Assembly: GCA_014896315.1 (NCBI GenBank)
Contig: JADBKP010000003.1
Location: forward strand, 122,134 to 186,133
Direction of reading: 5' to 3'
Length of the DNA: 64,000 nt
Source: Limnochordales bacterium
GTDB taxonomy: Bacteria; Bacillota; Limnochordia; Limnochordales; DUMU01
The translations under genes and the position numbers were made by a program. Under the pieces are notes generated by a model. It worked only from the letters and a program-made list of their open reading frames with translations. It did no database searches and was not told the origin of the DNA. Positions 7,827 through 58,695 of the stretch are shown piece by piece. The stretch's first letter is position 1; every line of letters starts with the position of its first letter.

Positions 7827-8006
7827 CGGACTTCCACTCCCTCCCCGGACAGTTTACCACGCCTGTCCCAGCCCCAAAACGGTACAGCACCTTTACCGCG
7901 CTTCACGGAAGATCTATCATCGGTTACAAGACCCGTCTCGCCGGTGTTGTCGCCTTTGCTGCCGCTGCCAACCGCGACGAGCCGCGCGCTTGAGGAGGTG
8001 TACGCC

Positions 8007-9578: not shown

Positions 9579-10278
9579 TAATGGTCTGGGGGCGGTGCTT
9601 GTGGCAGGAAAAAGCCAGGCTGAAAGGGTAGGAACGCCAAGCTTCACTCTCTACGACATTTCCCGACCGATCTACCCGGGGATGCTGGTGTGGAAAGACA
9701 AACCGGAAAAGGCGCCTTGCTTCACCACCTCGCGGGAACATCCGCGGGAGACACGCCTTTCCTTTGACTCCCACTCCGGCACTCACGTAGACGCACCGCT
9801 GCACATGATCCCGGGCGGCGCACCCATCAATCAGGTTGCACTGGAACGGTTTGTAGGCAGCTGCCGGGTGGTCGACCTTACCCATATCGAAGAGAAGATC
9901 ACCCGCGCCGATCTGGAAAGCGTAGATGCCCTCGATCCTCTTGTGCCCCGGGATTTCGTCCTGCTGAAGACCCGGAACTCGTGGCAGATCGCGCCCCCCT
10001 TCGATCAGCGCTTCGTCTATCTTGCCCGGGATGGCGCAGAGTTCCTGGCCGAGCGGGGTGTACGGGGAGTAGGCATAGACTCCCTGGGGATCGAGCGGGA
10101 CCAACCCGGTTATCCCAGCCACCGGTGTCTCTTGGTTGCCGGCATTCCTATAATCGAAGGGTTGTACCTGGCCCGGGTGCCCGCCGGCCGCTATTTCCTC
10201 GTCGCTGCTCCGCTGCCCCTGGTGGGCATTGATGCCGCCCCCGCCCGGGTCTTCCTCATCCGTTTTGACGAGTGGTGA
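9568..10278 (+). CDS. Cyclase / kynurenine-formamidase-like metal hydrolase
   Basis: The roughly 236-residue protein belongs to the cyclase family (Pfam type PF04199) that includes arylformamidases and polyketide cyclases. The metal-binding signature HSGTHVDAPLHM is intact, and YPSHRCLL and GIDSLGIERD fit the second half of the family. ATG 9568 overlaps the end of zwf; GTG 9601 is an alternative. The specific substrate cannot be inferred because no tryptophan-degradation genes lie nearby. Confidence 0.85.
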   Translation: MKTDNGLGAVLVAGKSQAERVGTPSFTLYDISRPIYPGMLVWKDKPEKAPCFTTSREHPRETRLSFDSHSGTHVDAPLHMIPGGAPINQVALERFVGSCRVVDLTHIEEKITRADLESVDALDPLVPRDFVLLKTRNSWQIAPPFDQRFVYLARDGAEFLAERGVRGVGIDSLGIERDQPGYPSHRCLLVAGIPIIEGLYLARVPAGRYFLVAAPLPLVGIDAAPARVFLIRFDEW

Positions 10279-10326
10279 TTCCCGTCGCCGGGACTTGTGT
10301 TAACGTTGTGAGTAGCAGAGGGGAAG

Positions 10327-11190
10327 GTGGGGGCGTTGGCCGAGACGTCGCTGCGGGAACGGGTCCTCCCCGGCCTGTGGGAGGTACGGACGCACCTTCT
10401 CGAGTACGGTCCCGAGAATGGGGAGCCGGTAGTATTCGTTCACGGTTACCAATCAGACGCCCGTATCTGGAGCAGGAATCTGGCCGGGCTCGGTCCGGAC
10501 TTCCACACCATCGCCGTGGACCTACCCGGCCACGGTAAGAGCGGAAAGCCCCTGACGACCTACACCATTCCTTTCTACAGCCGGTTCCTGGGGGATCTCC
10601 TCGGTCGCCTCAACCTGGGCCCGGTCACGCTGGTGGGTCTCTCCCTGGGAGGGGCGATCGCCGCCGCAACTGCCATTGCCTGGCCAAGCCGCGTCAAGCG
10701 CCTGGTCGTCGTGGACGGCCTGGGAATGGGAGCAGCTCACCCAAGGCAGCTGGTACACCTTGTAAAACGTTTCTTCCCTCTGGTGTGGGCTCAGGTCACC
10801 GGCCGCATCGGCCGACAAGATATCTACAGGTTCCTCAGCGAAGTTCTCTTCGCCGACAGCCACCGGATCGACGAGGAACTGGTCAGTCTGGCCGTCGAAG
10901 GCAGCCGCCAAAGCCGCCTCGCCAGTCTGCTTACCGGCCTGATGCTGGTACTTCCCTCAAGCCACCTTTACCCGCGACTGCACCTGGTCCAACAACCCAC
11001 CCTGCTTATCTGGGGCGACTCCGATCACCTTTTCCCGGTGGACCATGCTCGGCAGGCGGCCGCCCGGATTCCTCACTGCCAGTTGGTTGTGATACCAAAG
11101 GCAGGTCATCTGCCCCACCTGGAACAACCCGCCATCTTCCATGAGGAGCTGGTGCGCTTTCTGCGCAGCACCCCCGCCGACTCTGACTGA
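10327..11190 (+). CDS. Alpha/beta-hydrolase
   Basis: The 287-residue protein has the alpha/beta-hydrolase layout: an oxyanion-hole region FVHGYQSDARIW, the nucleophile elbow GLSLGG carrying the catalytic Ser, a late acid in LIWGDSDHLFP, and the catalytic His in KAGHLPHLEQP. The substrate is unknown. It follows the cyclase gene by 48 bases with GGGAAGG before GTG 10327, so the two may be cotranscribed. Its 3' end overlaps the convergent exporter frame by about 185 bases. Confidence 0.88.
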   Translation: MGALAETSLRERVLPGLWEVRTHLLEYGPENGEPVVFVHGYQSDARIWSRNLAGLGPDFHTIAVDLPGHGKSGKPLTTYTIPFYSRFLGDLLGRLNLGPVTLVGLSLGGAIAAATAIAWPSRVKRLVVVDGLGMGAAHPRQLVHLVKRFFPLVWAQVTGRIGRQDIYRFLSEVLFADSHRIDEELVSLAVEGSRQSRLASLLTGLMLVLPSSHLYPRLHLVQQPTLLIWGDSDHLFPVDHARQAAARIPHCQLVVIPKAGHLPHLEQPAIFHEELVRFLRSTPADSD

Positions 11191-12136
11191 ACCAAGATGC
11201 CCCGTCCCCTCTAGCAGCACCCGCTTCGGCGACCAGCATTCCCAGCAGTATCAGCGCCGAGCCCACCGCTTCTTCCCGTCCCACTTGCTCTCCCGCCAGG
11301 AGATACCCGGTCAACATGGCAAAAACCGGTTCAAGAGAGAAGATGATGGCTGCATGGGCCGGAGTGGTATACCGCTGAGCGCGGGTCTGTACGAGCAACA
11401 CGCCGGCGGTCACCACGATACCCGTAAAGGCTGCGGTGGCCCAAACCGGACCGGGTGCCGGCCAATCCACCACTTCCCAGTAGATGCTGACCAGCAGGCT
11501 GGCCACAAAGACAACACCAATCTGCAATACGCTGAGAACAGCCTCGTGCATCTCTGCCCCAAAGCGACTGATAGCCACCACGTGCCCGGCAAAGGCAAAG
11601 GCGCACCCAAGCAGGAGCAGGTCGCCGGGGTCCATAGGCCAGAGACTTCCGTGGATTCTGGCCGCCGGCAGGAACATCGAGTACAGACCTGCGGCGGCAA
11701 AACCGGCGCCTACAAGCGGCGGCCAGCCGGGCAGGCGCCGGTATACCACGGCGGCAATAAAAGGGACAATAATCACCGACATTCCGGTGAAAAAACCGGC
11801 TCTCCCTGCGGTGGCAGACTGCAGCCCCAGCGTCTGCAGCGCGTACCCGGCAAAAAGCAGGCCGCCGGTCAGCAAACCGTAGCCTAACTGCCGCCAGGAG
11901 AGATGGAGTTTACCCTTCATTAGCAGGTGGACGAGGATTGGCAGGAGTACTACCAGGGCCAACCCGAAGCGGATGGCCAGGAAGGCGAAGACGGGGTAGG
12001 CACTGATAGCATTCTTTACGATTACAAAAGTACTGCCCCACAGGAAAGTGATCCCAAGAAGGATCAGATCTGCCTCCAGCCGGCCAAGGTGCGGCCGAGG
12101 GCAGGGTAATGCCTCCGGCGCTGCCACATTCCCCAT
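11006..12136 (-). CDS. EamA-family (DMT) exporter with an extended tail
   Basis: This membrane protein has two EamA repeats, each of about five hydrophobic segments, typical of drug/metabolite transporters. The first helix region ILLGITFLWGSTFVIVK and the repeat end YTTPAHAAIIFSLEPVFAML are characteristic. The transporter part ends near residue 305. The frame then continues for about 70 polar residues that lie antisense to the end of the alpha/beta-hydrolase gene. Either the tail is real and unrelated to transport, or a nearby stop was lost. The substrate is unknown. Confidence 0.83.
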   Translation of the reverse strand: MGNVAAPEALPCPRPHLGRLEADLILLGITFLWGSTFVIVKNAISAYPVFAFLAIRFGLALVVLLPILVHLLMKGKLHLSWRQLGYGLLTGGLLFAGYALQTLGLQSATAGRAGFFTGMSVIIVPFIAAVVYRRLPGWPPLVGAGFAAAGLYSMFLPAARIHGSLWPMDPGDLLLLGCAFAFAGHVVAISRFGAEMHEAVLSVLQIGVVFVASLLVSIYWEVVDWPAPGPVWATAAFTGIVVTAGVLLVQTRAQRYTTPAHAAIIFSLEPVFAMLTGYLLAGEQVGREEAVGSALILLGMLVAEAGAARGDGASWFSQSRRGCCAESAPAPHGRWRVVPGGADDLPLVSQPTGSEESGRPPAEHGPPGKGDRSRPR

Positions 12137-12148
12137 CCGGTACCACCC

Positions 12149-12943
12149 TCAGTTCGTGGTCACCGGCGGGGGTGATGATACTCTCTGGCCGCCGGCGCGC
12201 CGGAAAAGATTGTTCCGCCGCTCGATCCAGTTGACGAGCAAGGAGATGGCCTTGGTCATCACCAGGTAGATCACAGCCGTCATCAGGTAGACCTCAAAAG
12301 GTTTGAAGGTACGCGTTACAAGGATCTGTGAACGGCGGAAAAGCTCTTCCAGAGAGATCACCGCCACAAGCGACGAGTCCTTGAGGAGAGCAATAAACTC
12401 GTTGCCGAGCGGTGGAACCATGCGTCGCATGGCTTGAGGCAGGACCACGTGCCACATGGCCTGGACGTAGGTGAGGCCGGTAGCCAGAGCCGCTTCCATC
12501 TGGCCGCGGTCAATCGACTGGATGCCCGCGCGCACTATTTCGCCCACATACGCCCCGGAGTTGAGGCTGAGAGCGATGACCCCGGCAGTGAAGGCGTCAA
12601 AGGACAGCGAGGTGAAGACCATCGGCAGGCCGAAGAAGACGATATAGAGTTGAACTAGCAGAGGCGTACCCCGGAAGAAGTCGACATACGCCCCGGCTGC
12701 CCGGTGCACGAAGCGCAGGACGAGCTTGCGCAGTACCCTGGCCATCCCCTCGTTCGGGCGGATCGGTTTCGGAGGGATCACCCGGCACAGGCCGATGATC
12801 GTGCCGAACACTATCCCAAGGCCCACCGACAACGTGGTGAGAATCAGTGTGGTTCGCGCACCTTCAAGCAAGTAAGGAACTTCGGGACCCCATTCTCGGA
12901 AGAAGGCAATCACGTCCGCCCACAAGCCTGCCAAACCGTCCAA
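12149..12943 (-). CDS. Polar amino-acid ABC transporter permease
   Basis: The roughly 264-residue protein is a HisM/GlnP-type inner-membrane permease. It has several hydrophobic helices and the EAA-type loop in YVQAMWHVVLPQAMRRMVPP. The frame opens at GTG 12958, but GGAGG sits eight bases before TTG 12943, so that start is preferred. It is separated from the upstream binding-protein gene by about 170 bases containing a terminator-like hairpin, which should lower its expression relative to the binding protein. Confidence 0.9.
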   Translation of the reverse strand: MDGLAGLWADVIAFFREWGPEVPYLLEGARTTLILTTLSVGLGIVFGTIIGLCRVIPPKPIRPNEGMARVLRKLVLRFVHRAAGAYVDFFRGTPLLVQLYIVFFGLPMVFTSLSFDAFTAGVIALSLNSGAYVGEIVRAGIQSIDRGQMEAALATGLTYVQAMWHVVLPQAMRRMVPPLGNEFIALLKDSSLVAVISLEELFRRSQILVTRTFKPFEVYLMTAVIYLVMTKAISLLVNWIERRNNLFRRAGGQRVSSPPPVTTN

Positions 12944-12971
12944 GACGAGCACCTCCACAAGGATTCACATC

Positions 12972-13012
12972 AAAAGGGAGACCGCCCTCCCGTCGAGCAG
13001 GGGGTCTCCCTT
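12972..13012 (-). terminator. Intercistronic hairpin between binding protein and permease
   Basis: A 10-bp perfect stem (12974-12983 with 13003-13012) is followed on the minus strand by a short T run at 12975-12972. It lies downstream of the binding-protein gene and upstream of the permease. Partial termination or 3'-end protection here would give excess binding protein, as is common for such transporters. Confidence 0.7.
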
Positions 13013-13115
13013 CCTTGCCAAAGCCGTCGACCCACCCGGACTCTTGCTCTCAAGTCCCACTCAGCTATCGGTAAGCGTTTGGCCCTAGCTTCAAGCGCAG
13101 GCCAAAAACTTTCCT

Positions 13116-13859
13116 TCACTCAGCCCCAAACCACTTCTCATATATCGCATCGTACGTGCCATCGGCCTTCATCAGGGCCAGCGCCCGGTTGATCTGGCGT
13201 AGCAGATCGGTCCGGCCTTTGTTGACAGCTATGCCGTAGTACTCCACGGTGAACGGCCGGCCTACCACCCGTACCTGGCCCGGATTGGCTCGTTGCTCTT
13301 CTTTGGCCACCAGCTCGTCAGCTATAACCGCATCGGCCTTCCGCATCTTCAGTGCCAGAAAGGCGGCCGGGTAGGTGTCATAGGTGTCGATCCGCTTCAG
13401 GCCCTGAATCTTCTGGGCCGCAAAATGGCCGGTGGTACCGATCTGAACCGCTACCACCTTCCCCTTCAGATCGGCCGGTTCCTTTATGTCGGTAGTGTCG
13501 GGGCGTACCAGGATCACCTGTCCAGTAGCGAAATACGGGTCCGAGAAATCGACCGCCTGGGCACGCTCATCAGTAATCGTCATGCCGGCGATGACCACAT
13601 CGAACTTACCCGTCTTGAGGCCGGGCAGCAGACCGTCCCAGGCGGTGTTGATAATCTCCACGGTCATCCCGAGCCGCCTACCAATCTCCTTGATGATGTC
13701 AATGTCGAACCCGACCACCTCGCGCCCTTTCTCGTCCACGAACTCAAACGGCGGGAACGTGGCATCGGTGGCGACCCGCAGTTTTCCGGCGGCCAGAGCC
13801 GGCACGCTCCCGGCCAGGACCAACGCCAGGAGCACCAGCAGGATCCCTACTTTTTTCAT
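13116..13859 (-). CDS. Amino-acid ABC transporter substrate-binding protein
   Basis: The 247-residue protein belongs to solute-binding family 3. A signal peptide spans about residues 1-23 (basic MKK, a hydrophobic stretch, then ALAAG). The mature part begins LRVATDATFPPFEFVDE and includes GFDIDIIKEIG and the FSDPYFATGQ hinge motif, typical of polar amino-acid binding proteins such as those for glutamine, arginine or cystine. No lipobox Cys is visible, so anchoring is unclear. AAAGGGGGAG precedes the ATG. Confidence 0.93.
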   Translation of the reverse strand: MKKVGILLVLLALVLAGSVPALAAGKLRVATDATFPPFEFVDEKGREVVGFDIDIIKEIGRRLGMTVEIINTAWDGLLPGLKTGKFDVVIAGMTITDERAQAVDFSDPYFATGQVILVRPDTTDIKEPADLKGKVVAVQIGTTGHFAAQKIQGLKRIDTYDTYPAAFLALKMRKADAVIADELVAKEEQRANPGQVRVVGRPFTVEYYGIAVNKGRTDLLRQINRALALMKADGTYDAIYEKWFGAE

Positions 13860-37280: not shown

Positions 37281-37370
37281 GGAAGGGTGCTGGAGCGGCC
37301 GAACAGGCACGCCTGGAGAGCGTGTGGCGGTCTACACCGCCCGTGGGTTCAAATCCCACCCCTTCCGCCA
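37281..37370 (+). tRNA. tRNA-Ser (anticodon GGA)
   Basis: The acceptor stem GGAAGGG pairs with CCCTTCC, followed by discriminator G and CCA. The anticodon loop CTGGAGA gives GGA at 37315-37317, which reads UCC and UCU. A long variable arm confirms the serine type. The prophage integrase gene ends 48 bases beyond its 3' end. Confidence 0.95.
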
Positions 37371-37417: not shown

Positions 37418-38608
37418 TCAAGCCTGACTGGAACTGCTGGCGTGTGATGTTTGACTGGAGTTTGACTGGAGTTGAGCTTCGGGACCAGTACTAGCAGTAA
37501 GTCCGGATATCGTGCTGACCGCCCGCCTAGCCATGTCGAGTGTCACACCTTGGTAGATAGCCAAGGTGGTCCTGACGTCTCCATGTCCCAGCAAAGCAGC
37601 AATAGTCTTCGGGTCTACCCCTGCATCCGCCAGCCAGGTGGCAAAGGACTTCCTTGTGCTGTGCAGGGTTAGGCGTTTGTCGAGACCCAAGCGGTCGCGA
37701 ATAGCAGCAAACATGTGGTCAAGATGCTGGGCACTGACCGGGCCACCATGTCGCCCCGTGCAAACAAAGCCATCAAGGGAGATAACCTTCTGGCTGGCTC
37801 GGTGGCGTTTTAGTGTCTCCCATAGTTCGGGAGGCATGGGAATGTCCCGCCTGCTCTGCTGCGTTTTCAACGGTTGCAGGCCATCGCGTTGAAGTTGCTC
37901 CACGACATGGATCACTCCATGTTGCAGATCCACGTTCCGCCACCGCAAGCCCAGGATCTCTCCCCTTCTCATACCAGTGGAGAAGGCCAGTAGAAGGGGC
38001 AGATACGCGACGCTCTTCTTGGCTTCTTCGAGCATGAGCCTGGCTTGCTCCTTGGTCAAGAAGGCCACCTCGTGTTTGACAGCGCGGGGAGGGTCCGCAA
38101 TTAGATCGCAGGGGTTGCGGGTGAGCAACCCTTCCTTAACAGCAGCCTCAAACGCCACGTGCAGGAGCTTGTGCGCCATCTCCGCCCTTCGGGGGGAGAG
38201 TCCCTTCTGCAGGATCTGGGAATACAATGCCTGCAGGTGTCTTGGAGTCACCTTGTCCAACCGTAGTTGTCCAATAGCCGGAATAATGTGGAGGCGTAGC
38301 TGTACGGAATAATCACGAACTGTGTTCGGTCGTAGCGGGCCTCCATCCCGACCACCAAACTGTTTGTGGTGCTCAAGCCATTGTGTTAGGAAGGCCTCGA
38401 CAGTCGGAGTACCCGCGTTTGGAAGGATACCCTGTCCAGCCGAAGCAGCCAGCTCTGCCAACTTTTCCGCGACCTCTTGGCGAGTCTTCCCGTATACGAC
38501 ACGTCGGTCACGTGTCCCGTCGGGTTTGTACCCGACCATGATCTGCCCTTCCCACCGACCATCAGGGCGCTTCCTAATTGAGCCTTCTCGGTTACCCCGT
38601 CTTGGCAT
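37418..38608 (-). CDS. Tyrosine recombinase (phage integrase)
   Basis: The 396-residue protein has an N-terminal arm-DNA binding domain (GSIRKRPDGRWEGQIMVGY), a SAM-like core-binding domain, and a catalytic domain. Its conserved residues lie in STGMRRGEILGLRW, LHSTRKSF, LLGHGD and the Tyr in AIYQG. It would integrate and excise the prophage at the adjacent tRNA-Ser. CTGGAGGGG precedes the ATG. It is codirectional with the late genes, and no repressor or excisionase is next to it. Confidence 0.95.
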   Translation of the reverse strand: MPRRGNREGSIRKRPDGRWEGQIMVGYKPDGTRDRRVVYGKTRQEVAEKLAELAASAGQGILPNAGTPTVEAFLTQWLEHHKQFGGRDGGPLRPNTVRDYSVQLRLHIIPAIGQLRLDKVTPRHLQALYSQILQKGLSPRRAEMAHKLLHVAFEAAVKEGLLTRNPCDLIADPPRAVKHEVAFLTKEQARLMLEEAKKSVAYLPLLLAFSTGMRRGEILGLRWRNVDLQHGVIHVVEQLQRDGLQPLKTQQSRRDIPMPPELWETLKRHRASQKVISLDGFVCTGRHGGPVSAQHLDHMFAAIRDRLGLDKRLTLHSTRKSFATWLADAGVDPKTIAALLGHGDVRTTLAIYQGVTLDMARRAVSTISGLTASTGPEAQLQSNSSQTSHASSSSQA

Positions 38609-39491: not shown

Positions 39492-40022
39492 CTAGGCGGA
39501 CAGATTCGGGACCGGTTTCCCCTTGTTTACCCCGCTGCGCCACAGGGCAGCGGTGATCTGGGCTAGGGTCAGACGTGGCGGTCGAGGCCACTCGAGGAGC
39601 CCGTGCAACCGCATGATCGACTTGAGCTTAGCAGCATATTTGGGGTCAGTGGCGTAGCCAGCTCGTGCGATCTCCTCTGCAAATCGCTCCGGGTCATCCG
39701 CCACCGCCAAGGCTTGGCTGTACCTCGGGTTTTCGAGGAGAAATGCTGAGTGATCCCGGAGGCTTTCATAAGGGGTTTCGTACGCCCGAAACTTGGCAAT
39801 CACAGACTGCTTCTTTCCGTTGACGTACTCGGTGGTACGGGCCTCCTGGTACGGGCCTTGGCCTGTCCACTTGATTCCAAACAGGTTGTTCCCGACAGCA
39901 CTCTTCCCCCACCCAGTCTCTAGGGCTGCCTGAGCTGCGATTACGGCAGCAGGAATGCCCAGTTCGTTCTGGAGCTTGAGCGCGTGAGGCTTGATCCAGG
40001 CGAGGAACTCCTTAGGCGTCAT
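39492..40022 (-). CDS. Phage endolysin, glucosaminidase (GH73) type
   Basis: The roughly 176-residue protein matches FlgJ/LytG-type N-acetylglucosaminidases, with AAQAALETGWGKS carrying the catalytic Glu, then NNLFGIKWTG, FRAYETPYESLRDH and YATDPKYAAKL. It has no signal peptide, as expected for a holin-dependent endolysin. ATG 40022 follows GGAGAGGTGG; GTG 40034 also lies in frame. The last 25 residues form a short tail of unknown function. Confidence 0.9.
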   Translation of the reverse strand: MTPKEFLAWIKPHALKLQNELGIPAAVIAAQAALETGWGKSAVGNNLFGIKWTGQGPYQEARTTEYVNGKKQSVIAKFRAYETPYESLRDHSAFLLENPRYSQALAVADDPERFAEEIARAGYATDPKYAAKLKSIMRLHGLLEWPRPPRLTLAQITAALWRSGVNKGKPVPNLSA

Positions 40023-40356
40023 GCTTGTCACCACCTCTCCGGGTCATGAGGGCGTCCACCCGTTGAGCCACCCGATTCACCTTTTCGGAGAGTTCTTCGA
40101 GGATCGTTTGCCAAGGCGGTCCTCCATCGCCGCGAGAGGTCCATAATTCGAATCGTCGGGTTAGCTCATCTATTTTCTCGGTCAACTCTCTCAGTGCAAC
40201 CTGCCACTGCGAGTTGACCTCGATCAACCGACGCTCTCGTTCTGCACTTGTTCTCATTACCCAGACCAGCAAGCCAACGAACAAAAGTGGCCAGGCAGCG
40301 ATAATCGCTGCTGTGACCGGGTATTGAAGAAGGAGCTTTGCCATCTCTGCTTCCAT
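40012..40356 (-). CDS. Small membrane protein, BhlA/XhlA-like holin or holin partner
   Basis: The 114-residue protein has one membrane segment (about residues 11-33) and then a charged coiled coil with heptad-like spacing (ALRELTEKIDELTRRFEL, ILEELSEKVNRVAQRVDAL). This plan is typical of BhlA/UviB or XhlA phage lysis proteins. It overlaps the endolysin start by 11 bases, consistent with coupled lysis genes. A second holin-like gene lies beyond the endolysin. Confidence 0.7.
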   Translation of the reverse strand: MEAEMAKLLLQYPVTAAIIAAWPLLFVGLLVWVMRTSAERERRLIEVNSQWQVALRELTEKIDELTRRFELWTSRGDGGPPWQTILEELSEKVNRVAQRVDALMTRRGGDKHDA

Positions 40357-40697: not shown

Positions 40698-41303
40698 TCA
40701 TTCAGGGATTAGTCGGATCTCGACGTTTGGACCGACGGAATCGAAGGTATCGCTAAACCACGGATTGCTCACCTCCATCTCTCCCCCCGCCCTGCGAAAG
40801 ACAACGGGGGCGCGGAGTACAGTCTCCAGGTCGCTCCTGATGCCCTCGGGGATCAGGGGCAGGAGCTGGTTCGCGAATCGGACTGCTGCTCCGCAACGCA
40901 GGGTACATGGGACGAAGGGCAGCAGCGCCAAGTTGGGCCAGAAAACGTTCAGTTGCCACGGGAAGCTCAGCTCGCCCGATGCATTAGGAAGGAGCGTACC
41001 CAGGTTGTTCTGGGCCAGAGCGCAGCACCGGGGATAGCCCATTGCCAGCCATAGGGCTTCGTGCTTTCCCGAGGCCCATACTTCGGAGACCCGGGTTAGA
41101 GCTGCAGCGTCTCGGGCCACAGCGACCAACCCCACGTCGTCCACCCGGGACACTAACAAGCGGGCCTCCTTGGCTTTTCCAGCGAGAGTTTCGGGGACGA
41201 TGGTCGCCCCGCTCACCTCATGAGCCACCGCGAGAATGGGGAGCTCGCGCGAAAGAAAATGGACCACCTGCGCCAGGCGGTCCGCGTTTTCCGGGGACTC
41301 CAT
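40698..41303 (-). CDS. Second GYPxCC / PCxxxC protein of the radical SAM cassette
   Basis: The 201-residue protein shares with the 41821-42723 product the order GYP-x-CC (Cys 93 and 94) and P-C-x3-C (Cys 133 and 137), about 40 residues apart. The four cysteines could hold a metal or Fe-S cluster. The pattern recalls DUF483-type proteins, from memory only. ATG 41303 overlaps the methyltransferase stop in TGATG, so translation is probably coupled. Function unknown; a cofactor, electron donor or substrate-delivery role in the cassette is inferred. Confidence 0.8.
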   Translation of the reverse strand: MESPENADRLAQVVHFLSRELPILAVAHEVSGATIVPETLAGKAKEARLLVSRVDDVGLVAVARDAAALTRVSEVWASGKHEALWLAMGYPRCCALAQNNLGTLLPNASGELSFPWQLNVFWPNLALLPFVPCTLRCGAAVRFANQLLPLIPEGIRSDLETVLRAPVVFRRAGGEMEVSNPWFSDTFDSVGPNVEIRLIPE

Positions 41304-41824
41304 CACAGTTCGACCACCCCTGCTTGGCTGATTGGTCCGACCACCGGGGCATCTCTCAGCCTGAGCCCCGCCTCCCTGCAAAGGCCAGCGAGCGACCCAT
41401 ACCGGGTTACCCAGTCTCCGTAGGCGTAGGCAATGACGGTCGCCCCCGAGTGGCGAAGGCAGTTCAGCAGAAGAAACGCCCGGTAGATTGGGACTTCAAC
41501 GAGACGCCCGGGCATCAGCAGAACCACGTCAATGCTCCGGGGCAGACGATACTCAAACATGTCCCCGACCACGAAATGGTTGGCAAACTCGGGCAGCAGT
41601 TGCTTCGCGTTTTGGATGGCTACCGGGTTCACGTCCACCCCATAGGGAATGAAATCCGGGTTGCGTTCCCGGAGCTTTTTCAGCAGCGCCCCGTTCCCGC
41701 AACCGAGGTCGAGGATGTTACCGCCCTGCGCCACCTGGGGAATTAGGTCCAGAAGCGGGCGGTGCGCCTGTTCCTGGGCCTCAAGCGTGCTGAACCCGTT
41801 GTCTCGCCAGTACCACTCGTTCAC
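41303..41824 (-). CDS. Class I SAM-dependent methyltransferase of the cassette
   Basis: The 173-residue protein has the SAM motif ILDLGCGNGALLKKL, the acidic post-motif PYGVDVNP, and VVGDMFEY and DVVLLMPG as later motifs. GTG 41824 overlaps the stop of the upstream CC-motif gene in GTGA, and the stop overlaps the next start, so it is tightly coupled to both. The open frame to 42046 is antisense-like extension and is rejected. A methylated substrate in the phage-encoded protein is inferred from context only. Confidence 0.87.
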   Translation of the reverse strand: MNEWYWRDNGFSTLEAQEQAHRPLLDLIPQVAQGGNILDLGCGNGALLKKLRERNPDFIPYGVDVNPVAIQNAKQLLPEFANHFVVGDMFEYRLPRSIDVVLLMPGRLVEVPIYRAFLLLNCLRHSGATVIAYAYGDWVTRYGSLAGLCREAGLRLRDAPVVGPISQAGVVEL

Positions 41825-42723
41825 TCCGCCCCCACCGCCTTCCGGTAGGACTTGGTCTCGGTAAGGCGCGTCCCTCTGGGTGACCTGAACGGAAACACGA
41901 GCCCCTGCGCCCCCTCCTCGGGGTAGCTCGTCCCCTGGCGTCTTACCACCAGCTTGCTGGGGGTGTAGTCCGTACGAGCGGTAATCTGCAGCACTGGCGT
42001 CTTGATTATGGCAATTCCGTGCAGGGCAGACCATTCGACGGGCCATGAAAGCATCTCCAACAGCCAGTCCATCTCCCGGTCATAGCCTCGTGCCCGCCCG
42101 ACCTCGACCAGGCGTCTTCCGAAGTCCACCGTGGCCTGGCAGGTAAAGCTGCATGGTAGGTGGGGTACTGCTCGTACCCCGAGCCACCTTAGCAGGATGT
42201 TGGCCTCAGGAGGCCCCGAGACCTCGACCACGTGCCCTTCCGGGCCAACGGTATTGGTAGCCATCTGCCAGGTTGTATCCACGTGTTGCCCGTCTACCCA
42301 GACCCGGCGGAAGAAGTCGATGCAACATCCCGGATACCCGAGCAGTTGTCCAATGATCTCGTCATCGCGATCTGAGGAGGCTCTGGCGAATTCCGAGGCG
42401 ACCTCGGGCTTGCAGATGGCCACCCGGTATTCCCATGCCCCACCTGGCTTGATCCCTGGCGTTGTTGCGGCATAGGTGCGACCTCTGCCCTGCCGGGCCA
42501 GTGGCACGAGAACTAGCCCTAGGTCCATCACATACCGCGCCCGCGCTGGTAGTTCTTCGGGCGTTGCTACCTGGAGGGCAGCTTGGCGCATGCCTTCGCT
42601 AACCGCCCAGACCTCGACCTCCGTCCACACGCGCTGGATGGCCTCGACTCGGGGTTGCCAAACTTCTCTGGCACGCTGGCTTGCCCACATCACTCGTGTA
42701 AAGTCCGGAAGCTCAAAGCTCAC
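41821..42723 (-). CDS. First GYPxCC / PCxxxC protein of the radical SAM cassette
   Basis: The 300-residue protein carries GYPGCCIDFF (Cys 133 and 134) and HLPCSFTC (Cys 191 and 195). It resembles DUF483-like proteins in the GYPxCC-xxFF signature, a recollection that was not searched. GTG 42723 overlaps the radical SAM stop in GTGA. The N-terminal 100 residues are helical, and the C-terminal part is beta-rich. The shared cysteine layout with the 40698-41303 product suggests two paralogous, possibly paired, metal-binding proteins serving the same pathway. Confidence 0.82.
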   Translation of the reverse strand: MSFELPDFTRVMWASQRAREVWQPRVEAIQRVWTEVEVWAVSEGMRQAALQVATPEELPARARYVMDLGLVLVPLARQGRGRTYAATTPGIKPGGAWEYRVAICKPEVASEFARASSDRDDEIIGQLLGYPGCCIDFFRRVWVDGQHVDTTWQMATNTVGPEGHVVEVSGPPEANILLRWLGVRAVPHLPCSFTCQATVDFGRRLVEVGRARGYDREMDWLLEMLSWPVEWSALHGIAIIKTPVLQITARTDYTPSKLVVRRQGTSYPEEGAQGLVFPFRSPRGTRLTETKSYRKAVGAE

Positions 42724-43976
42724 TGCCCCGCCCCCCTCGTGTCATAGTGGTCGCCATGGGTTATCTGGTCTCCGTGGCCTCCCGGGTGGCACTGGCCACC
42801 GACGACAGGCGCCCTCCCGCCCCGGAGAGCCTGTCTTGCCTGCTGAATCGTAGGGCGTTCCCCTGCAACCCACCGGGCCAAGAAGTAGCGTTCGATGTCC
42901 TGGCGCTTCGGATCTTGGGAGATGGGCGTGATTCCGACGTCAAGCAGTTTGGCCTCGAAATACTCCATCAGCCCGAACCAAACCCGACAATGCTCGCTCC
43001 GGTTACGCCAGTCCCCGTCAATGGCTGTAGCTGGGCAGTTACCCTTGCAAGCAAGCCAAAACCTGCATCCCTGGCAGCCCCCGTCCTCCTGTGGGGTCTG
43101 GTATAGAGCCAGGTAGCGCTCGAAACCCACTTGGTCTGCCTTGAACCAATCGACCCCGTCCTTGTTGGTCCTGCTACAGTTCGACCGCTCCCCGTGGGCC
43201 TCTATGCCCCTTACAGCATGTGTGGTCCATGCGTCGCACCCCTGCCAGATACAGGTGGCGCGCCCGTCCTCGCCTTTGAGCATGGCAAGGATGTCTCGGA
43301 AAACGTCAAACCGTAGGGTTTTCAGTTCCCGCTCGAGCTTAGCGAGTTCGATGAACGCACTCAGGTTCTCCTCGTCCGACAACGCCCACCGAGCCCGAAC
43401 TAGCGGGTGGTCGACCTCAAGAATGTGCAACCTGGCACTCTGGATGCCCTTTTGGTCCAGCTCCCTGAACCAATCCTTAAGTCTGGGAAGGCGCTCTGGG
43501 CTGGCATTCCCCCGGTGCAAGGTAACAATTAAGCCGGGCTTGAGCCCGGCTTCAAGCAGCTTGTCGATGGCTTGCATCGTTCTTCGAGTCGCCTCTCGCG
43601 TCTTTTCGAGGCTACCAGCCCATCTGACATCATTGAGTTCATCTGGCCCATCGATGCTAATCCCGACGTTGACATTGTAGCGCTTGAACAACTCGATATG
43701 CTTGTCGGTGATCAAGGCCCCGTTGGTCTGTATACCGTTTCTCCCGAACCGCTCATAGCCCCAACGCCAAAGTTCCTTGAGGTCAGACAAAGGCATCAAG
43801 AGTGCCTCACCGCCAAACAAGGAGAAGCTGTCAGCGCCCTCTGCTTCGACAGCCCGTTTGATCGCGTCAAGGTCGTAATCCCGCGCGAAGTTTCCCGCAT
43901 CGCGGACGGGATGCTCGTAACAATATGTACATGCAAGATTGCACGTGACGCCAAGTGGTCTTACTTCGGCGTTCAT
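42720..43976 (-). CDS. Radical SAM/SPASM peptide-modifying enzyme
   Basis: The 418-residue protein has the radical SAM cluster motif CNLACTYC (Cys 12, 16, 19), the GGEALL motif, and a SPASM domain for auxiliary clusters with Cys 242, 247, 267, 301, 304, 310, 314 and 330. SPASM enzymes of this build make thioether or carbon-carbon crosslinks in ribosomal peptides. No RRE-like leader-binding domain is evident. The last 20 residues contain HGD, HGD and HYD, the same triplets seen in the protein encoded just upstream, its likely substrate. GAGGAGG precedes ATG 43976. Confidence 0.93.
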   Translation of the reverse strand: MNAEVRPLGVTCNLACTYCYEHPVRDAGNFARDYDLDAIKRAVEAEGADSFSLFGGEALLMPLSDLKELWRWGYERFGRNGIQTNGALITDKHIELFKRYNVNVGISIDGPDELNDVRWAGSLEKTREATRRTMQAIDKLLEAGLKPGLIVTLHRGNASPERLPRLKDWFRELDQKGIQSARLHILEVDHPLVRARWALSDEENLSAFIELAKLERELKTLRFDVFRDILAMLKGEDGRATCIWQGCDAWTTHAVRGIEAHGERSNCSRTNKDGVDWFKADQVGFERYLALYQTPQEDGGCQGCRFWLACKGNCPATAIDGDWRNRSEHCRVWFGLMEYFEAKLLDVGITPISQDPKRQDIERYFLARWVAGERPTIQQARQALRGGRAPVVGGQCHPGGHGDQITHGDHYDTRGAGQ

Positions 43977-43987
43977 CGTTTGCCTCC

Positions 43988-44524
43988 TCAGGTTACTAGC
44001 ACGGGTTGGTCAAGGTGTGTGCCAAACACCTCGTCAATATGGTCACTATAGTCGGAGTAATCGTAATGGTCGTGATACAGCACGGTGTCGTAGTAAGGTC
44101 CATCCGTGTGGTCTACGTACAATGCGCTATCCTGATGGTCAACATGTTCGTAGTACGGTTCATCCTGATGGTAAGCGCTATCATAGTACGGGTCGTCGGT
44201 GTAGTCACTGTGGTAGTAGTCGCCGTAGTCAGAGTGAGCCTGGTGCTTGTGCTGTGACGCGTCTAACCACGCCCACCACGTCGCCTCCACCCACAAGCTT
44301 CCCGCCAGGCCTGTTTTGGCCCCGAAGTCGGGCCCGGTGATCTTTCGCTCGGCGCCGTTGGCGTCGATGTAGTGAAACTCGCTGCCCTCGATCCAGAACG
44401 ATCCTGGAAGAGCCCCGGAGGGGGTGGAAACATAGTCCCCGGTGAAGGCCCACTCGTTTCCATTGGCGTCGACATAGTGCCAGTCTGTGCCTTCAACCCA
44501 GATCGAGCCAGGTACTTTCGCCAT
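43988..44524 (-). CDS. Fibre-like protein with 17 His/Tyr-x-Asp triplets, probable enzyme substrate
   Basis: The 178-residue protein starts with three repeats of about 37 residues (PGSxWxEGxxxHYxDANG type), a pattern common in phage fibre tips. Residues 97-172 are 58 percent Asp, Tyr or His and hold 17 [HY]-x-D triplets, five of them back to back at residues 150-164. There is no Cys. The pattern matches substrates of cyclophane-forming radical SAM enzymes (aromatic-x-Asp). It sits between the main fibre and the radical SAM gene, 11 bases upstream of the latter. Metal binding by Asp and His is an alternative role. Confidence 0.85.
   Translation of the reverse strand: MAKVPGSIWVEGTDWHYVDANGNEWAFTGDYVSTPSGALPGSFWIEGSEFHYIDANGAERKITGPDFGAKTGLAGSLWVEATWWAWLDASQHKHQAHSDYGDYYHSDYTDDPYYDSAYHQDEPYYEHVDHQDSALYVDHTDGPYYDTVLYHDHYDYSDYSDHIDEVFGTHLDQPVLVT
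44009..44236 (-). repeat. Degenerate [His/Tyr]-x-Asp codon repeat
   Basis: This stretch encodes the triplet-rich domain. The repeat is in the protein more than in the DNA, since codons for Asp, His and Tyr alternate, which argues for selection on the amino-acid pattern and not simple slippage. Confidence 0.8.
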
Positions 44525-44536
44525 GTTTCCACCCCT

Positions 44537-46189
44537 TTACGCAGTCGCCCATTTGTCTGGGCCTACCGGCGCGACCAGGCGACCGTTGGTTGTGTTGAAG
44601 GTCCACCGAGAATTGACCGATGTGGCAGCATCCACACGCCCGAAGCTGGACGCGTGCAGGCTATCAACCGTGTCTGCGTTCATCGCCTGGGCCACCGCGC
44701 TGGTAATGTCTCCGCCAGCATGGGTATGGCTCGCCTGCGCCACCCCGGTCACTGCAATCGTGACTTTGTCATTCGTGGCATCGGGCGTGAGGCTGATGTT
44801 CGCTCCCGCGACCAGTTCCAGCACATCCGTTGGGGAATCCGCATCGATGTTGGTCGTCCCCACCCTCACCGTGCTGAAGGCGGGCTGGTTCACTTGCGCC
44901 CCGGCCTGGATGCCATCGAGCTTGGCTTTATCGGACGCGCTCATGAACCCCGCGGTGGTGGGGGTCGCTACTGCGTGAAGGCTGCCCCCGCCTCGGTTGC
45001 CATGAACAGCGTCGCTCATGGCAAACCCGATGGTCACCTTGTCGTTGGTGGCATCCGTCGTTATCGTGACCCCGCCCGTCCCTTCAAGGGTCAGGGTGTC
45101 GGAAGGCGAATCCGCTGCCACGGTCGATTGCCCGGAGACTGCCACGTTCGTAAACGCGTTCTGGCTTGCGGTGGAGGAGATGGTGATGACATCACCGCTG
45201 ACACTTAGACCGATGCCCGTGCCAGCCCGCAGGTTGACCGTGTCGGTCTTGGAGTCAGCACTGACAGAGCCAACAACCGCCCCCGAACCATCCTGCGCCT
45301 GGATCACGCTAAAGGCGTTCTGGTTGACCTCCGCGCCCGCAGCGATCCCGTCAAGTTTGGCCTTGTCACTCGGGGACATGAAGCCTGCGGCGCTGGTGGT
45401 CGCGTTAGCATGGGTGTGGCTGGCAGAGGCAAACGCAGAGGCATGCTGACCGTCCAGCGTATCCGCGTTCAAACCCGACGTGTTGACCCCGATGGTGATC
45501 ACGTCGTTCGTCGAGTCGACCGCCAAAGAGATGTTCTGGCCTTCTTTGAGGGTGAGCAGGTCCGTCTTCGCATCCGCATCCACCTGGCCCCGCGAGGTGG
45601 TCCCGTCCGATGCCACCGCCTTAACGCTGGAAAAAGCATTCTGGTTGGGCTCTGAACCGGACGCCACCGTGTCCAGCTTTGCCTTATCAGCGGGCGACAT
45701 GAACCCTGCAGTGGTTGTGGTGGCCAGCGCATGAGCACTCCCACCTGCCCCCACATGAGAAGCTGGGGCAAACCCGCTAGGCGCGATGCCCCCTACGGTC
45801 GCTGCATCCCCAGTGATGCTGGCCGGCAACTTTGCATCAGCGTTCAACCGCAGGATCTTCCCAGCCACTGGTGCGTCCACAACGTCGCTGACGAGCACAT
45901 GCCCCGGATGGGGCGCAGCAGCATCCATGTGGGCCTTGACAGCCTCCAGCGTCGTGGCCGGGGCCTCCCACCAGTTCGCCTTCCCCGTAATGGCCTTGAT
46001 CCGGTTGGTGATCCAGCTAATCCACTGGACCAGTTTGCCTGGTCCGTTGCCTGTAGGAGTCTGAGACGGGTCAGCAGTAGGAGTCAGAGCAGCGTCGATC
46101 TGGTCGGCGTTGTAGTTAAGGTCTGCAATGTTGACGACATCCGTTCCATCGGGTTTCTTCAGACCGTAGTTAGGAGTCGTCTGCACCAC
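44537..46189 (-). CDS. Phage tail fibre
   Basis: The 550-residue protein begins with a typical attachment segment (TPNYGLKKPDGTDVVNIADLN) and then repeats units of about 90 residues around AGFMSPSDKAKLDGIAAG and VNQNAFS, found in many phage fibres. The repeats likely form a trimeric beta-helical shaft. The C-terminal part has SRWTFNTTNGRLVAP. GAGGTGATGA precedes GTG 46189. Confidence 0.9.
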   Translation of the reverse strand: MVQTTPNYGLKKPDGTDVVNIADLNYNADQIDAALTPTADPSQTPTGNGPGKLVQWISWITNRIKAITGKANWWEAPATTLEAVKAHMDAAAPHPGHVLVSDVVDAPVAGKILRLNADAKLPASITGDAATVGGIAPSGFAPASHVGAGGSAHALATTTTAGFMSPADKAKLDTVASGSEPNQNAFSSVKAVASDGTTSRGQVDADAKTDLLTLKEGQNISLAVDSTNDVITIGVNTSGLNADTLDGQHASAFASASHTHANATTSAAGFMSPSDKAKLDGIAAGAEVNQNAFSVIQAQDGSGAVVGSVSADSKTDTVNLRAGTGIGLSVSGDVITISSTASQNAFTNVAVSGQSTVAADSPSDTLTLEGTGGVTITTDATNDKVTIGFAMSDAVHGNRGGGSLHAVATPTTAGFMSASDKAKLDGIQAGAQVNQPAFSTVRVGTTNIDADSPTDVLELVAGANISLTPDATNDKVTIAVTGVAQASHTHAGGDITSAVAQAMNADTVDSLHASSFGRVDAATSVNSRWTFNTTNGRLVAPVGPDKWATA

Positions 46190-46828: not shown

Positions 46829-47902
46829 CTATAGCCCTGCGAGCTGATTCCAAGTGACCGGACCCTTGGGCATCTTGCTGTTTGGGTCGAAGTTGCCAGC
46901 GTGCCAGACTTGGTTCCAACCAACCCACAACCCGAAACTCTCGTCCGCGGCCCCGGAGGTCTCGCCGGTGGACCACGTTTGCGTCTTGTTCGTCTTTGAC
47001 GGGTAAAACGTGAAGTGTGCCCCCAGGATAAAGTACCGGAAAGCACCTTCAGCATCTCCTGACCAATCAGAGTGCCCGGCTATCAACAACCGCTGTGTAG
47101 GTCCACCTCGCGTCATTTTTTGAAGTTGCGTAGTCCACCATGGCACCCAGAAGGTGCTCGTATCCCCCCGCTTACTTCGCGATGCCTGAGCATGGCCCAG
47201 ATAGATGTCAGGGTCTCCATCCATCTTCTTCCATGTGCCTGTGGACGTATCGAAGAACTCACGTCGCAGATATAGGTACATGCCATGCCAATGATCTGCC
47301 GAATAGTGCAGAGTCACCTTGGCATACAGCTTGGAGTACCCCTGCGGAAGTGCGGGTGGGATCGCCCATGCGCCTCTATGTGTCCAATCCCACTCGTTCA
47401 ACTGCCACACGGTCGGCTTGGCAAAGTTAGGGCCTTGGCCATATGCCGAGTTGACAACCGCTATCTGTGGAGTCAGGAAAAACTCCTCGCCCACAGGTAT
47501 CATGCTCACAGTGTCATCGATGTCTGCCACGTAGAAGTGCATCAGGTCATCCGCGTGTTTTCCATCGACGGTGTCAGCCTCGGAAACCACGCTAGTGATG
47601 TCCGCTCCCGAGTGTGTATGGGGAGCTGGTGTAAAGGTGCTCGGCTTCCCCATTACCCCCGTCCATGGTACGCTATCAGCCACTTCCGCTGCATCTACTC
47701 GCCCGTCGTTGTCCGTGTCGTAAATGCTCTTCAGCATGTCGCCAGCGGTGGACACGTTGACGAGCAGGACGTTTCCGGTCGGCGTACCAATGTAGAGTTT
47801 CTGAGTATCGGTGGTGAATCCCAGTTCGCCCGGGGCAAGGGTAACGCCTGCCAGTTCTGCCTCTGTCCCCCGACGAATCTGGATGAGTACCTTCCTCGGC
47901 AT
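46829..47902 (-). CDS. Tail adhesin with Mtd-like N-terminal domain and EF-hand-like loop
   Basis: The 357-residue protein begins IQIRRGTEAELAGVTLAPGELGFTTDT, the N-terminal fold of phage tropism determinants and hyaluronidase-like fibres. Residues about 60-70 read YDTDNDGRVDAAE, a canonical calcium-binding loop. A middle region resembles fibre beta domains, and the C-terminus WHAGNFDPNS is common in fibre tips. It is a paralogue of the next gene in its first 50 residues. It may bind the host surface. Confidence 0.8.
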   Translation of the reverse strand: MPRKVLIQIRRGTEAELAGVTLAPGELGFTTDTQKLYIGTPTGNVLLVNVSTAGDMLKSIYDTDNDGRVDAAEVADSVPWTGVMGKPSTFTPAPHTHSGADITSVVSEADTVDGKHADDLMHFYVADIDDTVSMIPVGEEFFLTPQIAVVNSAYGQGPNFAKPTVWQLNEWDWTHRGAWAIPPALPQGYSKLYAKVTLHYSADHWHGMYLYLRREFFDTSTGTWKKMDGDPDIYLGHAQASRSKRGDTSTFWVPWWTTQLQKMTRGGPTQRLLIAGHSDWSGDAEGAFRYFILGAHFTFYPSKTNKTQTWSTGETSGAADESFGLWVGWNQVWHAGNFDPNSKMPKGPVTWNQLAGL

Positions 47903-47922: not shown

Positions 47923-48948
47923 TTAAGCAAACGTTCCACCATCAACTACAGCCACCATGAGACGGTTCCCGTTGGCAGGGTCATATTGGATGGAGACTCC
48001 ATCGATATTGACAGCCACACCGTTTGCGTCAACCGTTATCCCTTTATAGGCCTTTACCGATATGGAATCATCACCAACGATAATCCCGTCCCCCGCGCCC
48101 ACGTTGAGGGTAACAGTGTCCGCCTGCCCCCCGCCTGTAAGGCCAGCCCCGGCCACAATGGTCTGGAGAGCGCCGCCAGTTCTCACCCAGGCGCTCCCAT
48201 TCCAGGAGTAGATCTTCTGCTCGTCATCGACATAGCAGGTCCAACCGGTTTGAGGGGTGTAGAACACCCACCCGGCACCATTCCACTCCGCGATCTCATT
48301 CGTGTGACCGTTCCATGCGCCTGTGGCGCCAGCGGGAACGATGTAGCGATCTCCTACCGCGGGGGTCGTGGGCGGAGTAGTCGTCGTCCGGTTCTTCACA
48401 CTGGCCTGGGGCTCGATGTTATGCTTGGCCAGCTCAATCTCGTTCTTGATTTTCTGGGCAGACCACAGGTCCGTTGGCCCGGTCCCGTTGTCATTGATCG
48501 ACCGATGAATGGCCGGGTCATTGATATGGCTCGCGATCTCCGCAGCGGTCTTCGTGTTCGTCCCGTCCGAGACCTTGTTGACATGCCCGTCCGTGATATC
48601 CGCCTTGAGCACCCGGGCATAGGTGCTACCATCCGCGATGTTGTCCAGCGAACCCGTCAGGTCTGCCAGGGTCTGGGTGTTCACCCGACGCCAGGCAGTC
48701 CCATCGTCGAGGAACAGGTACCCCGCCTGGTCGCCCGAGGTTACGTAGTACAGGCGTCCCGGAACCGACGCATTGGGGCGGCTGGCAAGCGTTCCCGACA
48801 TTACCCGCCCGACGAAGATGTTCGTGGTCCCGTCCCCGATGTACACCTCTTTGGTGTCGGTGCAGAAACCAAGCTCGCCCGGAGCGAGTGCGCCCCGGGC
48901 GACCAATTCCGCCTTGGTGCCACGACGGATCTGGATGATCTGCGCCAT
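47923..48948 (-). CDS. Second tail adhesin with Mtd-like N-terminal domain
   Basis: The 341-residue protein starts IIQIRRGTKAELVARGALAP and GELGFCTDTKEVYIGDG, like its neighbour. The middle carries PAVGDRYIVPAGATGAWNGH and VDDEQKIYSWNGSAWV, typical DUF2793-like fibre segments. It ends VVDGGTFA, nearly the same end as the gene upstream. It is likely part of the receptor-binding apparatus. Confidence 0.8.
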   Translation of the reverse strand: MAQIIQIRRGTKAELVARGALAPGELGFCTDTKEVYIGDGTTNIFVGRVMSGTLASRPNASVPGRLYYVTSGDQAGYLFLDDGTAWRRVNTQTLADLTGSLDNIADGSTYARVLKADITDGHVNKVSDGTNTKTAAEIASHINDPAIHRSINDNGTGPTDLWSAQKIKNEIELAKHNIEPQASVKNRTTTTPPTTPAVGDRYIVPAGATGAWNGHTNEIAEWNGAGWVFYTPQTGWTCYVDDEQKIYSWNGSAWVRTGGALQTIVAGAGLTGGGQADTVTLNVGAGDGIIVGDDSISVKAYKGITVDANGVAVNIDGVSIQYDPANGNRLMVAVVDGGTFA

Positions 48949-57240: not shown

Positions 57241-58683
57241 TCACCCCCTGACGTTGAACGTGCCGAAGATGAACTCCATCGTGTCGGTCAGGCGTGCATC
57301 CCAGCGAATGTAAACCTCATCTGGTGCAGCCAAGGCAGGGTGATAGGCAGGATCGAGCTGCACCGTATAGTCCGGTTCAATCAAGCCTCCGTTCACCAGT
57401 TGGTCCATGTACTGCTTGCAGGCATTGATCAAGGCCAGCTTCCCGTCATCGTTGTTCACGACTTTGCCAATGTAGTTGTCCGAGGCAGTCTTGAGCAGAT
57501 CCGCATTGATGGCATCCATGACCCGGATGGCCCGGATCTTGCGCCACTGCCGGTTCTGCCCCTCGCGCAGGCTGGTGAGCGTGTTAATGCCTTGCTCGAC
57601 CTTCACCTTTTCGCCATCGTGCACCAGCACCAGCGAGCCCGAGTTCAGGGCTTCCCGAATCTGGCTGTCCGTTAGGCGCGGTTTTACGTCTGTGAATGGG
57701 CAAACCGCGTAGGTGATGCTCTCTGCCAGCCTCTGCCCAGCGATCAGCCCGGCGATGAACGGCGCGATCTGGGCGCTCGAGTACCAGGTATCACCCAGTT
57801 GGGCGGAGGTGATAACGTTGACGATGCCCTCATGATTGAAGCTGAGTGACCGGGCGTTGCCCTTGGTCGGATCCTCGTCGTCGGTAGCGCTACCGCCCAA
57901 GACCGCGATAACGCCATGGCCTTCATCGCGCAGACGGGCCACCCATGCCTTCACCGAAGCTTGCAGGGAAGCGTCCGTCGCTCCGTCCAAGGAGAACAGG
58001 TTGAACTGACGCGCTTCGAAGGCAGCCAGAGCGCCCATGTAGTCCGCATTCGTGACCCCGGTTGCCCCATTGTTGCCATTGGCGAAAGGCTGCGCATTGA
58101 CCGCTGCAAGAGTTCCATTACCGTCAGCGATCTTGGTTGCAGTGATCCACCGGTTACCCGCGTCTCCGTTCACTGCTGTCACCGCAGCGTCAATTGTCCC
58201 CTTGAGGAAAGTGAACGTACGCAGTTGGGCAGTCCCCTCGTAGAGCACAATGTCCTGCTTGGTGCTGTCCACGGGGTTGTCACGGACGGTCACTGCAAAC
58301 GGACGATTGGTCTCATATTTCGTCTCGAGCCTCAGTACATCCCCTGGAGTGCTGGCAGTGTCCTTCAGCGTGATGCTGCCCTTGGACGCGTATGAATCAG
58401 CCAGGCGGTACACCAGGACGGTTCTCGCTCCACCCAGGAGCGCCATCCGTACGGTGTTATAGGCAGTCAGCCCGTTGGTGGTCGCATTCCCGAACCTATC
58501 GACCAGTTCTGCCTCACTGCTGATCTCTACTACCTGACGAATAGGTCCCCAATCCGCCTTCACCGGCACGGCCACAATGCCTCGAGCCCCGGGCTTGATT
58601 GCAGCCACGCCAGCAGCAACGAAATTAAGATAAAAGCCCGGACGGACCTTACCTTCCGTCGGGCTCCAGATCCCACCTGCCAT
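57241..58683 (-). CDS. Tail sheath protein, XkdK-like
   Basis: The 480-residue protein shows PGFYLNFVAAG and ARGIVAVPVKADWGP at its start, a middle domain with VTNADYMGALAAFEARQFNL, and the C-terminal assembly domain RVMDAINADLLKTASDNYIGK. This defines the phage as a contractile-tail (myovirus-type) particle. AGGAGGGT precedes the ATG. Confidence 0.94.
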   Translation of the reverse strand: MAGGIWSPTEGKVRPGFYLNFVAAGVAAIKPGARGIVAVPVKADWGPIRQVVEISSEAELVDRFGNATTNGLTAYNTVRMALLGGARTVLVYRLADSYASKGSITLKDTASTPGDVLRLETKYETNRPFAVTVRDNPVDSTKQDIVLYEGTAQLRTFTFLKGTIDAAVTAVNGDAGNRWITATKIADGNGTLAAVNAQPFANGNNGATGVTNADYMGALAAFEARQFNLFSLDGATDASLQASVKAWVARLRDEGHGVIAVLGGSATDDEDPTKGNARSLSFNHEGIVNVITSAQLGDTWYSSAQIAPFIAGLIAGQRLAESITYAVCPFTDVKPRLTDSQIREALNSGSLVLVHDGEKVKVEQGINTLTSLREGQNRQWRKIRAIRVMDAINADLLKTASDNYIGKVVNNDDGKLALINACKQYMDQLVNGGLIEPDYTVQLDPAYHPALAAPDEVYIRWDARLTDTMEFIFGTFNVRG

Positions 58684-58695
58684 GGCTTACCCTCC

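Follow-up and report, generated by a model that had tools for sequence, protein, structure and literature searches.

The window (the whole 64,000-nt stretch analyzed, from a Limnochordales bacterium, GCA_014896315.1, contig JADBKP010000003.1, positions 122,134-186,133 of the forward strand) was found to carry a prophage cassette which probably encodes a cyclophane-type cross-linking system for tail-fibre proteins, a reading to which a probability of roughly 0.6 is assigned on sequence evidence. The pairing of its radical SAM/SPASM enzyme with a protein bearing an array of aromatic-x-Asp triplets, which recurs in dozens of unrelated phages, is real, conserved and specific. The assignment of this array as substrate is strong, while the chemistry is inferred.

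The prophage is a myovirus with a contractile tail, as marked by the tail sheath gene (57247..58686, minus strand, as are the integrase, tail fibre, cassette and endolysin genes given below), together with tape measure, baseplate wedge and endolysin genes. Its integrase (37418..38608) lies at the prophage end and adjoins tRNA-Ser (37281-37370). The sequence-only reading had described five adjacent genes on one strand between the tail fibre and the lysis genes, the last four with overlapping junctions, and this layout was confirmed. Directly downstream of the tail fibre gene (44537..46189) are found the genes for the 178-aa array protein (43988..44524), the 418-aa radical SAM/SPASM enzyme (42720..43976), a DUF483 (PF04467) protein (41821..42723; previously the first CC-motif protein, with YPxCC and PCxxxC motifs), a 173-aa class I SAM-dependent methyltransferase (41303..41824; GTG start, with a longer raw ORF) and a second CC-motif protein (40698..41303), followed downstream by the endolysin (39492..40034). 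The array gene ends 11 nt from the radical SAM gene and the remaining junctions are GTGA, GTGA and TGATG. Two further fibre genes of the window (46829-47902 and 47923-48948) carry the Mtd_N domain (N-terminal domain of the major tropism determinant).

The array protein and its residue rule

The array protein consists of an N-terminal domain (residues 1-90; 44255..44524) with three GSxW[IV]EG..hYIDA.G copies kept across phages, and an aromatic-x-Asp array (residues 97-172; 44009..44236) of 17 triplets, nine HxD and eight YxD. Within residues 91-178, 17 of the 18 Asp residues sit two positions after His or Tyr; none of 200,000 composition-preserving shuffles matched these 17 [HY]xD motifs (shuffle maximum 14). 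Other aromatic-Asp spacings in this segment occur two to four times each, except for 11 at i+5, which are a harmonic of the triplet packing. The codons used for His, Tyr and Asp are mixed, so the pattern belongs to the protein and not to a DNA microsatellite. AlphaFold2 predicted an all-beta N-terminal domain (pLDDT about 95) and a disordered repeat tail (pLDDT about 44). The C-terminus is conserved (HxD-[QLN]-P). Structure comparison of the N-terminal domain with the PDB gave no informative match, and the model matches one nameless viral model at 37% identity. It is possible that this domain is an enzyme-recognition or virion-anchoring part, and it could also be a leader of the RiPP type. BLAST searches with the array protein alone returned only the Thermus phages Cumys and phiMa, chiefly through the N-terminal domain, the array being probably masked by low-complexity filtering; arrays were sought by pattern and six-frame scans instead.

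Across 31 array proteins, whose rows are related by descent so that the counts are descriptive and not independent trials, the position two after an aromatic residue is Asp 1139 times, Asn 140, His 41 and Glu 10 times, and the residue two before Asp is His 979 times, Tyr 108, Trp 37 and Phe 15 times. In a less redundant set the ratio of Asp to Glu is 984:9 in motifs vs 107:60 outside them, and Pro occupies the middle position once in 1102 motifs vs 228 of 2179 positions outside. When close homologues were compared, the commonest change at position i was between Phe and His, while 82 of the 137 changes at i+2 were between Asp and Asn and none between Asp and Glu. Individual arrays differ in their preferences: Asn is found at almost half of the sites in L106, and L263 has a free mix of Trp, Tyr and His at i. 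The latter array protein (390 aa, W/Y/H/F triplets with D/N; L263:278-3737) is from a genome of the window's phylum and has a divergent member of the radical SAM family and DUF483 alongside. A three-residue cyclophane requires an aromatic ring and, at i+2, a short side chain whose beta carbon is accessible, with no Pro between them. The acceptance of Asp and Asn, with Glu almost absent, fits a bond to the beta carbon, and the triplet rule suits aromatic-to-beta-carbon cross-links better than metal binding.

The radical SAM enzyme, its partners and the conservation of the pairing

The enzyme possesses the radical SAM motif CxxxCxxC (C12/C16/C19) and a full seven-Cys SPASM set (C247, C267, C301, C304, C310, C314 and C330). 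SPASM domains are typical of enzymes that modify peptides. No cut-off was reached for the curated maturase families GrrM, XyeB, YhhB, AmcB, FxsB and DynA, the best being DynA with 76.4 bits against 450; apart from anaerobic sulfatase maturases, the best curated matches were to cyclophane and peptide maturases, all far under their cut-offs. The enzyme carries a substrate-like HGDHYD motif at its own C-terminal tail (42741..42758) which is kept in phage members. Most phage members have two to nine HxD motifs in this tail and cellular members have none; the segment may serve for docking or be modified itself. In two phages (L104:11290-11688 and L106:6649-7047) the radical SAM and DUF483 genes are separated by a gene for a small protein in which HADHxDxTGxY occurs twice. 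This motif is also that of the radical SAM C-terminus in this phage group, and the small protein possibly serves in docking or as a carrier.

The Thermus phages Cumys, phiMa and phiLo (52–57% identity), about 30 IMG/VR contigs and a few bacterial genomes were found to carry close relatives of the enzyme. The homologue search proposed by the sequence-only reading, which had placed a triplet-rich protein beside the enzyme, returned an aromatic-x-Asp/Asn array near the enzyme in all phage relatives with enough flanking DNA among the matches listed. Unrelated partners in place of a triplet protein, which that reading had named as contrary to it, were not the rule among the matches listed: the array adjoins the enzyme in 36 of 43 non-redundant close relatives vs two of 80 remote homologues (Fisher test, p about 1e-21, the rows not being independent). 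The seven close relatives with no array are one phage contig (L096) and six cellular loci, of which four include RiPP-type genes. L096, the only phage lacking an array among the matches listed, is a truncated phiLo-like contig which ends before the site of the phiLo arrays. The absence of arrays from the cellular relatives L016, L017, L019, L020 and L022 indicates that the enzyme family is not everywhere tied to them. In the sixth cellular locus, L018 (Owenweeksia MAG; 7294-13378), the radical SAM gene is overlapped by that of a 901-aa protein with a sparser HxD-rich C-terminus, and genes for DUF483 and an aKG-HExxH hydroxylase come next.

The pairing was also recovered from the opposite direction, by a scan of viral contigs for DNA encoding HxDHxDHxDHxD which was blind to the enzyme (the IMG/VR pattern-scan and GTDB-scan counts are samples, of the matches listed). 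Among these matches, the HxD arrays with diverse middle residues (L211, L173, L159, L243, L191, L199, L221 and L257) all adjoin the enzyme, and the sole genuine array without it lies on a 2.4-kb fragment. Most matches to the pattern were set aside, being simple repeats or collagen read out of frame (HKDHKD).

The DUF483 protein is present with the enzyme in every close-relative locus with enough flanking DNA, and in only one of the 80 remote radical SAM homologues among the matches listed. The window's copy scored 25.7 bits against the Pfam gathering cut-off of 25 for PF04467. The second CC-motif protein scored 36.7 bits to a DUF483 profile built in this analysis, its assignment being through that profile only, and the two proteins of the window are probably relatives, the second being the divergent one. 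DUF483 has a conserved cysteine set of the CC...Cx3C type and is a probable metal or Fe-S protein; its confident model (pLDDT 94) had no informative match in a structure comparison with the PDB, and a PDB sequence search was empty. The methyltransferase is fused to DUF483 in many relatives and is absent from Cumys and phiMa.

Neighbors of the cellular relatives include an NHLP leader peptide (TIGR03793, just below cut-off), aKG-HExxH hydroxylases (TIGR04267) and a RiPP C-methyltransferase (TIGR03975), and these RiPP-type genes support a role in peptide or protein modification. Downstream of the radical SAM and DUF483-methyltransferase genes of Marinicella, a small ORF with HIDF at its end (L022:12589-12966) may encode a precursor peptide. 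In the enzyme tree a six-member cellular clade is nested among phage lineages (rooting weak).

Proposed mechanism and alternative explanations

Evidence that the substrate is a tail protein comes from arrays fused to other virion proteins. In L097 the array lies in frame within a homologue of the central tail fibre J (gpJ; phrog_31 E 3e-47, Phage-tail_3), in L129 it forms the end of a virion-type protein with LamG, and L104 has it joined to a collagen-like tail fibre; such fusions support a structural substrate. In Cumys and phiMa, as in the window, the array gene comes after genes for the tail or its fibres, the tail assignment of the window's own array protein being by position and N-terminal homology only. 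The earlier proposal that the phage crosslinks, and perhaps methylates, a virion protein of its own or a carried peptide is upheld in part: the fusions and the RiPP-type cellular neighbors are in its favor, while the enzyme falls below all curated cyclophane-maturase cut-offs, which weighs against it.

The array would very likely be the substrate of the enzyme, and its protein is very probably part of the virion, as a tail-fibre or fibre-tip component in which aromatic-x-Asp/Asn triplets make up a flexible C-terminal tail. The radical SAM/SPASM enzyme would modify the triplets of the neighboring array many times, joining a His, Tyr, Trp or Phe ring to the beta carbon of the Asp or Asn two residues on with a loss of 2 Da per three-residue cyclophane, which is favored as the product. 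The DUF483 protein would act as obligate partner of the enzyme and the methyltransferase would provide an optional second tailoring step. The disordered chain would become a stiff, protease-resistant rod, although whether cross-linking does stiffen the tail is judged an even question. Equally balanced is the wider proposal that many unrelated tailed phages use a dedicated radical SAM-DUF483 system to place tens of intra-chain cyclophanes in proteins of their tail fibres or tail tips, giving a rigid stapled rod, and that such systems are a possible source of some cellular RiPP clusters; the last is suggested by the nesting of the cellular clade among phage enzymes (with weak rooting). Oxygen sensitivity is a property of radical SAM enzymes, and turnover of dozens of sites by such an enzyme would be demanding, which counts against cross-linking.

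Repeated His and Asp residues could instead be ligands for Fe, Zn or Ca in a metal-binding fibre, the radical SAM operon being unrelated or metal-loading. HxH motifs, as in T4 gp37, bind iron in tail fibres (PMC11705849), HxD could chelate metal and the DUF483 cysteines are conserved. However, Tyr, Trp and Phe freely replace His while D/N is kept, the near exclusion of Glu, the Asn-rich L106 array and the exclusion of Pro at x do not suit metal ligands, and the radical SAM pairing is left without explanation, making this quite improbable. Even if the triplets are the substrate, the radical SAM chemistry could be of another kind (epimerization, oxidation, an aromatic-Asp cross-link between chains or a joint step with the methyltransferase), as the enzyme lies outside all curated families and both its substrate and its companions are unlike those of known triceptides; this is considered unlikely, given that the fixed i, i+2 spacing and the rule of Asp or Asn, not Glu, are those known for three-residue cyclophanes.

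Instead of belonging to the particle, the array might be a carried peptide product, such as a RiPP resembling a bacteriocin or another kind of cargo. There is little likelihood of this, since the cassette has no peptidase or exporter, and the array fusions with tail proteins of the gpJ, LamG and collagen kinds, the tail-operon site and the conserved C-terminus all speak for a particle component, against which stand the RiPP-type enzymes and the small array proteins of some genomes (L015 and L021). Modification of phage DNA was suggested in 2024 for the module of Cumys and phiMa, described there as a radical SAM, DUF483 and a protein of unknown function, with similar prophage loci (PMC11437467). 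It would be in keeping with the methyltransferase fusion and with the enzyme and DUF483 homologues which adjoin deazapurine DNA-modification genes in some cyanobacteria (PMC11437467). It is nonetheless highly improbable, as the constant partner in phages is the array protein, on whose repeats that paper is silent (no mention of HxD was found in its text), the genes sit in tail/lysis operons, cellular relatives accompany RiPP genes, and a SPASM domain is characteristic of enzymes acting on peptides.

Comparison with known systems

Should the cross-linking reading hold, natural-product style radical chemistry would serve the building of phage particles, and three-residue cyclophane formation would no longer be confined to small peptides but would include proteins that carry as many as about 100 sites. 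An unassigned phage module would be explained, DUF483 would gain a role and an enzyme for stapling protein rods would be at hand. Direct testing is feasible, as three module-bearing phages (Cumys, phiMa and phiLo) are cultured on Thermus thermophilus HB8. We know of no precedent for a covalently stapled rod as a structural element of virions. A literature search on radical SAM enzymes with tail fibres or virions, and on SPASM in phages, found no report of a modified fibre, although subscription papers and bioRxiv were mostly outside its reach and priority is unproven. The many radical SAM genes of Campylobacter phages were treated as metabolic in the paper describing them.

The module of Cumys and phiMa resembles that of the window in its adjacent enzyme of the same family (56–57% identity), DUF483, a third protein homologous to the array protein and the tail/lysis site, but lacks the methyltransferase and a second DUF483 protein. 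The triceptide maturases (YxdB, HaaB, YhhB, OscB/GrrM and XyeB) share a SPASM radical SAM enzyme with an adjacent aromatic-x-Asp/Asn substrate and the use of His, Tyr, Trp or Phe rings; YxdB joins Tyr to the beta carbon of Asp, HaaB joins His to Ala and OscB joins Trp to Asn/Asp (PMC11002830). Unlike these systems, the phage modules have large tail proteins with 10–100 motifs (array substrates of about 170–870 aa, known triceptide precursors being far smaller), a constant DUF483, no transporter or protease and an enzyme that reaches no curated cut-off. A further pairing was found in an Oligoflexaceae MAG (L056:895-2506), one of the two array-bearing remote homologues among the 80, where a GrrM/OscB enzyme (398 bits, cut-off 310) adjoins a 126-aa precursor with a WxD/WxN repeat array at its end. 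This is a known type of chemistry, and the locus differs in its short precursor, its lack of DUF483 and its separate deep branch in the enzyme tree. The HxH iron-binding tail fibres of T4 (gp37) and alterophage R22Y likewise contain His motifs in repeats, but the arrays described here differ from them in their aromatic substitutions, their Asp/Asn rule (with His far rarer than Asp at i+2, 41 vs 1139, which is not the pattern of an HxH ligand pair) and their dedicated radical SAM operon.
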